Part shown: one piece after another, positions 34,457 to 49,687 of the stretch
Layout of the letters: every line of letters starts with the position of its first letter
Numbering within the stretch: the stretch's first letter is position 1
DNA from: an uncultured Poribacteria bacterium
Lineage (GTDB): Bacteria > Poribacteria > WGA-4E > WGA-3G
Direction: 5' to 3'
DNA: 64,000 bases
Assembly (NCBI GenBank): GCA_951828385.1
Contig: OX639973.1
Span: forward strand, 558,001-622,000
The notes under the pieces: model-generated
What the model was told of the DNA's origin: nothing
What the model saw: only the letters and a program-made list of their open reading frames with translations
The model's database searches: none
Program-made: the position numbers and the translations under genes

Positions 34457-34550
34457 TGGCGGGAGAGGGTGGGAGTCGAACCCACCAATCCACGTGTATG
34501 GACTATCCGGTTTTGAAGACCGGTAGGGCCACCGGACCCTATCCTCCCCC
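34457..34550 (-). tRNA. selC: tRNA-Sec (anticodon UCA)
   Basis: A 94-nt selenocysteine tRNA. Features I could fold by hand: 8-bp acceptor stem (GGGGGAGG with CCTCTCCC, one G-U pair), 6-bp D stem (AGGGTC with GGCCCT) with a 4-nt loop, 5-bp anticodon stem with loop CTTCAAA (anticodon TCA), a long variable arm (TCCA/TGGA), a 5-bp T stem (GTGGG/CCCAC), and encoded GCCA 3' end. The 8-bp acceptor and 6-bp D stem are diagnostic of bacterial tRNA-Sec. It lies 15 bp after selB. Confidence 0.95.
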
Positions 34551-46536: not shown

Positions 46537-46731
46537 TTAAGAAGAGTTTGCCCGCTTAGAAGGGGCAGTGTCTTTGGAAGCAATCTCGGAGGCAAACGTA
46601 TCACATATCTGGGATAAATTGTCAATAAAACGTTCCCAGCGCAATTCGTCTTGACGTGCTTTCGTCATCGCAAGGCACAAAGCCGTTTCGTATAAGGATA
46701 GACGCTTCTTGCGTACATCAGTGGATTTCAT
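46537..46731 (-). CDS. Small hypothetical protein
   Basis: A 64-residue basic and helical protein (KKRLSLYETALCLAMTKARQ) of unknown function. No Shine-Dalgarno is visible. Just upstream, at 46758-46777, is a CCCAATCC-TTTA-GGTTTGGG hairpin of the type seen at TnpB/IS200-like element ends, so this short frame may lie at the edge of a decayed mobile element. It could also be chance, as it is short. Confidence 0.4.
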   Translation of the reverse strand: MKSTDVRKKRLSLYETALCLAMTKARQDELRWERFIDNLSQICDTFASEIASKDTAPSKRANSS

Positions 46732-46757
46732 AATTTTACGGGCATTTGGGCGTAAAG

Positions 46758-46777
46758 CCCAATCCTTTAGGTTTGGG
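46758..46777. repeat. IS200/IS605-end-like hairpin
   Basis: CCCAATCC and GGTTTGGG pair (one mismatch) around a TTTA loop, preceded by AAG and followed by ATATAAG. A hairpin with the same TTTA loop closes the structured RNA downstream (47090-47110). Such GC-rich TTTA hairpins are typical of transposon right ends and omega-RNA termini; identity is inferred. Confidence 0.45.
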
Positions 46778-46814
46778 ATATAAGCCCGCTAAGAGCGTAT
46801 TCCCCTAAATAGAT

Positions 46815-46843
46815 TTGACATTCAGAAAAAAATGTGGTATAAT
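46815..46843 (+). promoter_or_regulatory. Consensus sigma70 promoter of a structured RNA
   Basis: TTGACA (46815-46820), exactly 17 bases, then TATAAT (46838-46843). Both hexamers are perfect consensus. No protein-coding frame follows for more than 1.1 kb, so the expected product is a non-coding RNA starting near 46850. Confidence 0.8.
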
Positions 46844-46849
46844 CATACT

Positions 46850-47225
46850 AACACTCTGGACAACACTCTCACCCTGCACACTCATTGTGCAGGCGTTGTC
46901 CACCATTGTGAGAGGTGGTAAAAGGTGTTGAGTGTCAATACCACTCTAAAAAAAGTATTTTGGGCAGCTAACGCTTAAAGTTTCGGAGCAGAGGTGAAAG
47001 TCTGTACGCTGTATTGCTGCCCACTTTTCAACTTTTCTCTCTATTTCAGAGAGAGGTAGGCGGGGATAGCCAAGATTTCGCCTTGATATGCCTACGGGGA
47101 TTTTTCACCCTGTAGGGAATCGCCTACTGGTGGAGCGAAAATAAGACGTTCAACCTTATTGGAAGAATGCAGTCGCTACGAAGCCGAAGCCCCTGCCTTT
47201 AGGCAGTGGGTGCTATCACCCCTTT
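46850..47225 (+). ncRNA. Structured non-coding RNA, omega-RNA/HEARO-like
   Basis: About 375 nt of dense base pairing with no open frame. Helices by hand: TGGACAAC (46857-46864) with GTTGTCCA (46895-46902), enclosing CCTGCACA/TGTGCAGG (46873-46893); loop CTCTCAC (46866-46872) can pair with GTGAGAG (46908-46914) as a pseudoknot; ACACTC/GAGTGT (46851-46856 with 46930-46935); GGGCAGC/GCTGCCC (46962-47022); TCTCTCT/AGAGAGA (47036-47054); GTAGGCG/CGCCTAC (47056-47127) enclosing two hairpins; AATAAG/CTTATT (47140-47160); and a final CTGCC-TTTA-GGCAG hairpin (47093-47106 is its core) followed by CTATCACC. The 5' pseudoknot and the CGCTACGAAGCCGAAGCCCC tail recall IscB omega-RNA (HEARO). No IscB or TnpB gene is adjacent. 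Confidence 0.55.
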
Positions 47226-47838
47226 CTGAATTAATGTAATTATAGTAAAGTTTAGAATTAATTGGGCACTCTCCAACAGTCTGAATACCTATAACAGGCA
47301 TTCAGACTGGAAACCCAAACTAAAAGTTTGTGGTACGAATGTGTCTATTTATTTTTAGGATTCACTATAATATATTATTCAATATAACGTTTAAACAATA
47401 TAACGTTTAAACGGATGCACTGGCGAAATAGTTACACTTTTTTCAAAAAAAAATCAAAAATGCTAAAATTCAATTATACGTTTGTAAGTAGCAAGTTTCG
47501 TGCCAATATCCTAAGAAGATACAGCGTTTGTGTCAGAAATTCTGCCAAGGATGCCTAACATATAGTTACATAACTTAGTTATCCGTAAGAGGATCCGCCT
47601 TCACTTTTTTTTATAAATTACGGTTGAATTCGCTTGTCGTTTCCCTTCCTATTGCCACAGTAAGCAAAAATTGTTGTATTTTAGTGTATCTCAGCAATCA
47701 TCGGTTTCGCTGTGCATCAAGAGAATATCCTTTGGCGTTTATAGGGGACATATCTGCCTGTTTTTTACGCAATCAAGGTGGATTTTCGCGCAATACTTCG
47801 TGAACTCAGTAAATACGATTTGAAAGCGTACCATAACC
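47226..47838. other. A+T-rich region without genes
   Basis: No coding frame of note. It contains a 10-bp inverted repeat CAGTCTGAAT/ATTCAGACTG (47277-47286 with 47300-47309), nested in TTGGG/CCCAA, and a 16-bp perfect tandem duplication AATATAACGTTTAAAC (47381-47412). Nothing else is recognised; it may be relic mobile-element DNA. Confidence 0.55.
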
Positions 47839-47971: not shown

Positions 47972-49687
47972 ATGAAGCATTCAGATCCTCCTTTAAAAGA
48001 AACTATCAACAACACCTCCGATACAAACTTCATCCGTCAAGAGATTGAGAAGGACCTCCAGACCAATAGATATGACAGCCGGGTGCATACCCGGTTCCCT
48101 CCAGAACCGAGTGGTTACCTCCATATCGGGCACGCTAAGGCTATCTGTATTAGTTTCGGCATCGCCGAAGATTATGGCGGACTTTACAATCTGAGATTCG
48201 ATGACAGCAACCCCCTCACAGAAGAGAGTGAATACGTAGAAGCGATTAAGCGAGATGTCCGGTGGCTCGGATTCGATTGGAAAGATCGCGAATACCACGC
48301 GTCTGACTATTTTGAAACGCTTTATGCGTATGCGGTTAATCTCATAGAAAAAGGGAAAGCCTACGTCTGTGATCTGACCCCGGATGAAATGCGCACTTAC
48401 CGTGGCACCTTAGTCGCCCCAGGGACAAACAGCCCTTACCGAGACCGATCGGTTGAGGAAAACTTAGTGTTGTTCCAAGGGATGCGCGATGGGGAGTTTC
48501 CAGACGGTTCGCGGACACTTCGCGCAAAAATTGATATGTCAAGCCCGAATCTAAATATGCGGGACCCTGTGATGTACCGCGTCCTGCGCGCCCATCACTA
48601 TCGCCACGGCGACAATTGGTGCATCTATCCGACCTACGATTTTACACACGGACAATCCGATTCCATTGAGGGTATTACGCACTCACTGTGTGATGTGAAT
48701 TTCGAGGATCACCGTCCGCTCTACGACTGGTTTTTAGAAGCATTAGAGATTTATCAGCCTCGGCAGATTGAATTCGCACGACTGAATCTTACCTATACCG
48801 TGCTGGGTAAACGGAAACTTCGGGTGCTGGTAGAGGGTGGACACGTCAGGGGTTGGGATGATCCGAGAATGCCGACACTCGCCGGTATGCGCCGCCGTGG
48901 ATATACGCCTGAATCTATCCGCGATTTTTGCAACCGCATCGGCGTTTCAAAGGCTGATAACCTCATTGAAATGGGGCAACTGGAGTATTCTATCCGCGAT
49001 AATCTGAACCGTCGTGCCCCACGCGTCATGGCAGTGCTCGATCCGGTTAAGGTGATTATCAATAACTACCCAGAGGGGCAAGTTGAGATGTTTGACGCGG
49101 AAAATAACCCCGAAGATGAGAACGCAGGCACACGAAAAATACCGTTTTCACGAGAAATTTACATTGAACGTGAAGATTTTATGGAAGATCCGCCACGGAA
49201 ATTCTTCAGATTAGCCCCCGGACGAGAAGTGCGGCTTAAACATGCGTATTATATCCAATGCGAACGGGTCGTTAAAGATGAAAACACCGGTGAAATCGTT
49301 GAGATTCACTGCACTTATGATCCAGAAACGCGTGGCGGTTGGTCCGAAGATGGACGCAGAGTTAGGGGTACATTACATTGGGTCTCTACTGAACACGCTG
49401 TTGACGCTGAGGTCAGACTCTACGATTCGCTGTTTACAGAACGTGAACCGGAAAGTGCAGCAGAAGGCGAAGACTGGATACAGTTCCTGAACCCAGATTC
49501 CTTAGAGATTCTAAACAATTGCAAAGTTGAACCGAGTCTCGTTGATGCCCCCCCCGAAAGTCGGTATCAATTCCTTCGGATGGGCTATTTTTGTGTTGAC
49601 TCGGATACAACATCAGAGAAGTTGGTATTCAATCGCACAGTGCCGTTGAGGGATAGCTGGGCGAAGATTCAAAGAGGACAAAAATGA
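47972..49687 (+). CDS. glnS: Glutaminyl-tRNA synthetase
   Basis: A 571-residue class I synthetase that charges tRNA-Gln with glutamine. [12 protein letters not shown] and the HIGH-containing [20 protein letters not shown] are typical of GlnRS. The [19 protein letters not shown] segment and the C-terminal anticodon-binding barrels are present. It lacks a good ribosome site. Its stop overlaps the gltX start (ATGA), so the two synthetases are coupled. Its presence suggests direct Gln-tRNA formation here. Confidence 0.94.

Follow-up and report, generated by a model that had tools for sequence, protein, structure and literature searches.

The 64,000-nt stretch of DNA analysed here (the window) contains a 480-bp non-autonomous element of the IS200/IS605 type, belonging to a sponge-associated Candidatus Poribacteria bacterium. 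Its RNA is a standalone omega-RNA of the TnpB kind, an identity that is well supported. We class it as a variant omega-RNA rather than a typical member, because its element lacks the tnpB gene that usually accompanies such an RNA. Since the element has no gene of its own, yet retains a promoter and a guide scaffold, it probably borrows the TnpB of related elements. We propose, with a probability of roughly 0.7, that this is a PATE-type satellite transposon that supplies a guide RNA of its own, directing TnpB in trans to cut the empty donor site.

Element boundaries, copies and insertion sites

From 5' to 3' the element consists of a TTAC target, a left-end (LE) hairpin, a promoter, the RNA and a right-end (RE) hairpin (Table 1). 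The unit slightly exceeds the region (46815-47225) described in the initial annotation, which did not recognise it as a transposon: it spans 46740-47219, together with the TTAC and the guide that starts at 47220. A DNA search of the 6.66 Mb single-contig genome recovered 10 copies, nine of them full-length (474-496 bp) and the tenth (L010) 5'-truncated. All nine full copies have TTAC (once TTATC) before the left end and ...GGGTGCTATCAC at the right end; dozens of standalone copies are also found in related Poribacteria. Both the left and the right hairpin contain CTTTAG and are of IS200/IS605 type.

The exact empty site of the window copy, with TTCATAATTTTAC running directly into CCCTTTCTGAATTA, is present in three relatives (L182, L183, L185). 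The junction in these sites reads TTTTAC followed by CCCTTTCTGAATTA, that is, TAM plus guide, and the first 13-16 nt are identical to the window guide. Empty versions of two other insertion sites (L002 and L005) were also found, with TTAC in place. Target duplication is absent, as the IS200/IS605 family predicts. The element has the features of a PATE: subterminal palindromes shared with IS605, a tetranucleotide target, no target duplication and no transposase.

The sigma-70-type promoter that was first noticed in this region is exact in the window (TTGACA at 46815-46820, a 17-nt spacer, TATAAT at 46838-46843) and recurs in most copies; in full copies it lies at an equal position, mostly with 11-12 of 12 consensus letters and 17-nt spacing. 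The region was also rightly described as free of an ORF and of an adjacent nuclease gene, as 46740-47219 contains no ORF of at least 60 aa. The next gene beyond the element is a glutaminyl-tRNA synthetase-like ORF at 47972, and no iscB ORF lies directly downstream.

Two neighbouring features were observed. A small ORF of 64 aa (46537-46731, minus strand) lies in a region conserved across the genus, with the element inserted a short way upstream of the ORF's start codon. About 16-18 nt to the right of the element is a MITE-like repeat with terminal inverted repeats (47236-47365), which leaves the first ~16 guide letters undisturbed; the genome holds about 38 copies of its 91-bp core, and the repeat is missing from the relatives with the empty site.

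Table 1. Features of the element and its flanks, in window coordinates
Feature	Position	Strand	Evidence
TTAC target tetranucleotide, presumed TAM, left of element	46736..46739	+	precedes own-genome copies; retained in relatives' empty sites
Complete non-autonomous IS200/IS605-type element, 480 bp	46740..47219	+	full copies in own genome; exact empty site in L182, L183, L185
Left-end subterminal imperfect hairpin CCCAATCC-TTTA-GGTTTGGG	46758..46777	+	both LE types of standalone copies also at tnpB elements
Sigma-70-type promoter TTGACA-17-TATAAT	46815..46843	+	exact consensus; recurs in copies; also upstream of tnpB
5' leader with pseudoknot	46845..46936	+	R1 match, 87.9 bits (window sequence in seed); 99.1% paired
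Leader closing helix	46851-46856/46930-46935	+	
Leader helix A	46858-46864/46895-46901	+	
Leader pseudoknot	46866-46872/46908-46914	+	
Leader inner hairpin	46873-46879/46887-46893	+	
Leader hairpin B	46903-46906/46915-46918	+	
Middle domain: GGGCAG/CTGCCC stem with inner GGUGAAA-loop hairpin, then hairpin 47037-47053	46962..47053	+	paired, with double changes
TnpB-type omega-RNA scaffold, up to right end	47053..47219	+	R2 matches 3' ends of 22 tnpB loci
Right-end subterminal hairpin CCCCTGCC-TTTA-GGCAGTGGG	47190..47210	+	helix 16, 96.5% paired; RE motif in 10 standalone and 7 tnpB elements
Presumed 16-nt guide CCCTTTCTGAATTAAT, outside element	47220..47235	+	differs at every copy; directly follows TTTTAC in empty sites of three relatives

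Structure and covariation of the RNA

The structured RNA of ~375 nt proposed from the window letters is borne out, as the window RNA folds better than 100 of 100 dinucleotide shuffles (z = -4.65). To this we add compensatory base changes in homologues, identified in a MAFFT alignment (A1) of 36 distinct standalone RNAs with the structure written on the window sequence. In this alignment 93.0% of 3149 cells are paired, versus 79.3% in shuffles and 37-45% in slid structures; 53 of 89 pairs have changed on both sides, giving 475 double-change cells versus 154 in shuffles. Writing the structure on the window sequence biases the paired percentages in its favour; the double-change counts do not rest solely on this choice. 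At 70.8% paired, helix C (columns 100-122) is weak and is excluded from the claimed structure.

In the 5' leader, 99.1% of cells are paired across 32 aligned sequences, with 215 double-change cells versus 66 in shuffles, and slid structures reach only 38-48%. The pseudoknot suspected there is real: all of its cells (100%) are paired across 36 distinct homologues, and four of its seven pairs covary. It had been read as a likeness to HEARO; it is instead part of a leader common to tnpB mRNAs. A covariance model built from standalone leaders only (R1) matches tnpB mRNA leaders, and in each of the 12 cases examined 5 or 7 nt separate the end of the leader from the next ORF start. Eleven of these 12 ORFs carry the RuvC-III motif, and the ORFs span several TnpB subfamilies; of the 73 genomes of the order, 45 have R1 matches. 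In 35 of 36 RNAs the 5' strand of the closing helix has two repeated 3' strands as alternative partners, giving mutually exclusive helices, an arrangement that looks like a switch.

Several observations adjoin the leader. A tandem 7-nt repeat with two exclusive pairings is also found upstream of tnpB starts (L056-L100) in several TnpB subfamilies. The helix order of the leader suggested an HDV-like ribozyme, which was dismissed by eye as there is no plausible catalytic core. One standalone element of the same genome (L107, G000:C1:6484586-6484909) has the same leader and a different middle domain, and its right end, ...GTGGGTACCTATGAC, matches a second tnpB/tnpA subfamily of that genome.

The middle domain, between leader and scaffold, covaries and is seen only in standalone elements. 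Its outer stem is 97.2% paired, the inner hairpin 91.1% and the following hairpin 97.1%, with double changes. A search for its distinctive pattern in genome contigs matched only (Candidatus) Poribacteria records, and the same search in viral contigs gave no match. Covariation in the leader and middle domain cannot be put down to end recognition; selection acts on the standalone RNA, or did so until recently.

This distribution bears on whether the element is an ordinary PATE or MITE, conserved only through a TnpA that recognises its ends in trans, its RNA a passive remnant of a tnpB element. Such an origin would account for the presence of the left and right ends of tnpB elements around no gene, and PATEs arising by core deletion are known from passages of PMC3119063 and PMC7290912. 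We nevertheless consider it unlikely: covariation is strongest in the leader and middle domain, well away from the ends, the promoter boxes are retained, and the middle domain is not a tnpB leftover in any element examined here.

Class of the RNA and candidate partner genes

The initial annotation described the RNA as omega-RNA/HEARO-like. Homology to tnpB 3' ends upholds the first part of this description, a standalone omega-RNA, and the second, the HEARO/IscB class, falls away. The HEARO covariance model (RF02033) gave no match to the window RNA at E up to 10. As a positive control, the IscB loci of the same genome (L041-L043, L046-L048) match HEARO at 24-38 bits (L041, 38.5), below the gathering threshold of 83; a HEARO null at gathering level thus carries no information, since true IscB loci miss that threshold too. 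At the gathering threshold, Rfam matched only tRNA-Sec, elsewhere in the window (a selenocysteine tRNA gene at 34461-34550). A group I intron (IStron) was likewise rejected, as no intron family matched at E up to 10.

A covariance model of the 3' domain built from 29 standalone copies only (R2) matches 22 tnpB loci at their 3' ends with E values of 1e-41 to 3e-10, and finds 37 places in the own genome; on IscB loci its best E is 0.05, none convincing. The identical right end follows seven own-genome tnpB genes (L056, L058, L061, L063, L067, L068, L073), and the ~170 nt before the right end of those seven elements align with the window RNA. The scaffold letters differ slightly (standalone GAAGCCGAAG versus tnpB GAAACCGAAG). 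Both LE types of the standalone copies recur at tnpB elements (L056, L058, L067, L068, L073). The TTTA-loop terminal hairpin noted at the outset is present and is the right end of the transposon, and the "CGCTACGAAGCCG" tail, earlier taken as a HEARO/IscB likeness, is the 3' scaffold of TnpB omega-RNAs, with the guide 3' of the right end. As in TnpB omega-RNAs, the scaffold ends at the RE, and the flanking guide adjoins the target motif in empty sites. A HEARO/IscB omega-RNA working in trans with one of the eight IscB-type genes of this genome is therefore very improbable, given the failure to match a model that weakly detects true IscB loci, the homology of the scaffold to tnpB 3' ends, and a guide on the 3' rather than the 5' side.

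Three further standalone elements (L108 and L110 in the own genome, L160 in G045) have a TnpB-type right end and a different body, GGAATGCGTGAGCGGAGGAG...GGGTGGAAACAGAGCCAACCCACGACG, reminiscent of an IscB-type RNA. Rfam HEARO gave no match on these three; a dual guide RNA is possible.

A standalone omega-RNA of this kind probably acts with a nuclease encoded elsewhere. The genome-wide search for iscB and tnpB suggested at the start returned, besides the eight IscB-type genes, 54 TnpB-type genes above the Pfam cut-off; there are also 12 candidate TnpA-type genes. The TnpB of L067 aligns with ISDra2 TnpB (8bf8, E 1e-36) and keeps the RuvC D, E, D and the zinc-finger cysteines. The seven intact tnpB elements with the same RE have no room for tnpA between their ends; in four tnpA-tnpB elements the scaffold is related and the right end differs. 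Close TnpB homologues are found in 35 of 38 genomes of the genus. Three draft genomes contain standalone copies and either no TnpB at cut-off in the tested clade (G051) or TnpBs of that clade that are only ~52-54% identical (G038, G041); these copies may be relics, users of other TnpBs, or an effect of draft assembly.

Proposed mechanism and comparison with known systems

We propose the following route for the satellite. Sequence documents it as far as the RNA and its junction with the flank; expression, TnpB binding, cleavage and retention are inferred. An ancestral element would have lost its tnpB ORF while keeping the ends, the promoter, the tnpB-type leader pseudoknot and the omega-RNA scaffold, with an extra structured domain present. 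Transcription from its own promoter would cross the right end into flanking DNA, so that the 3' terminal ~16 nt of the RNA would form a guide that matches the sequence to the right of the insertion; at the empty site this sequence directly follows TTAC. This agrees with known TnpB systems, in which the ~16 nt of flanking DNA beyond the right end serve as guide (PMC8612924; PMC10278001), as in the ISDra2 reRNA, which ends in ~16 nt of flank (PMC8612924); TnpB processes the 5' side only and tolerates 3' padding (PMC10278001). A TnpB from a related element would bind the standalone RNA in trans and cut the empty donor site left by excision during peel-and-paste transposition, and repair of the cut site from a sister copy would restore the element. 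Excision and insertion themselves would be carried out by TnpA acting in trans.

The RNA could instead be a trans-acting regulator or decoy, its leader and/or scaffold titrating or restraining TnpB instead of directing it to cut the element's own site. The leader shared with tnpB mRNAs, lying 5-7 nt before the start codon and having two exclusive closing helices, would suit this role, and inhibition of TnpB by its own mRNA has been reported (PMC10278001). We judge it improbable, as the 3' domain extends precisely to the RE and TTAC stands at the opposite end, the layout that a functional guide RNA requires; a correct guide junction would be superfluous in a decoy, although TnpA also requires these ends. 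A broader proposal, that RNA-only satellites reprogram TnpB in trans for their own retention and that the shared two-helix pseudoknot leader is a regulatory RNA, perhaps TnpB-sensing, across several subfamilies, is more speculative than the satellite reading itself and we offer it tentatively.

If the satellite reading is true, guide-RNA-directed retention is not private to nuclease-coding elements, and gene-less satellites manage with a promoter and an RNA alone. It would also be a natural case of a guide RNA separated from its nuclease, as in CRISPR arrays. The conserved leader ahead of many start codons of tnpB offers another lead on TnpB control that can be tested, and about 36 distinct natural RNAs are assay-ready, the empty target site being known for several of them.

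Standalone HEARO/IscB omega-RNA loci have reportedly been described in Ktedonobacter by Altae-Tran in 2021, and Altae-Tran in 2021 and Meers in 2023 reportedly discuss standalone IscB omega-RNAs and possibly PATEs in Geobacillus. The window element resembles the Ktedonobacter loci in being a guide-RNA locus away from the nuclease gene; those loci are of the IscB class with the guide 5' of the scaffold, whereas here there is no sequence or covariance match.

Like PATEs (PMC3119063; a single Halanaerobium case in PMC7290912), the window element is short and gene-less, with IS605-type subterminal palindromes and no target duplication, and is presumably mobilised by TnpA in trans. It differs in that its promoter is conserved and its RNA, which includes an omega-RNA scaffold, is full-length and covaries, whereas the passages on PATEs in those two papers describe no RNA; it is a PATE with a conserved RNA, a combination absent from those passages. 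With the omega-RNA (reRNA) of ISDra2-type TnpB (PMC8612924; PMC10278001) it shares a 3' scaffold that overlaps the right end, a terminal RE hairpin, a guide from the right flank and a target motif left of the element. Unlike that reRNA, which derives from tnpB mRNA, the window RNA comes from a gene-less element with its own promoter and carries a leader and a middle domain within its ~375 nt.
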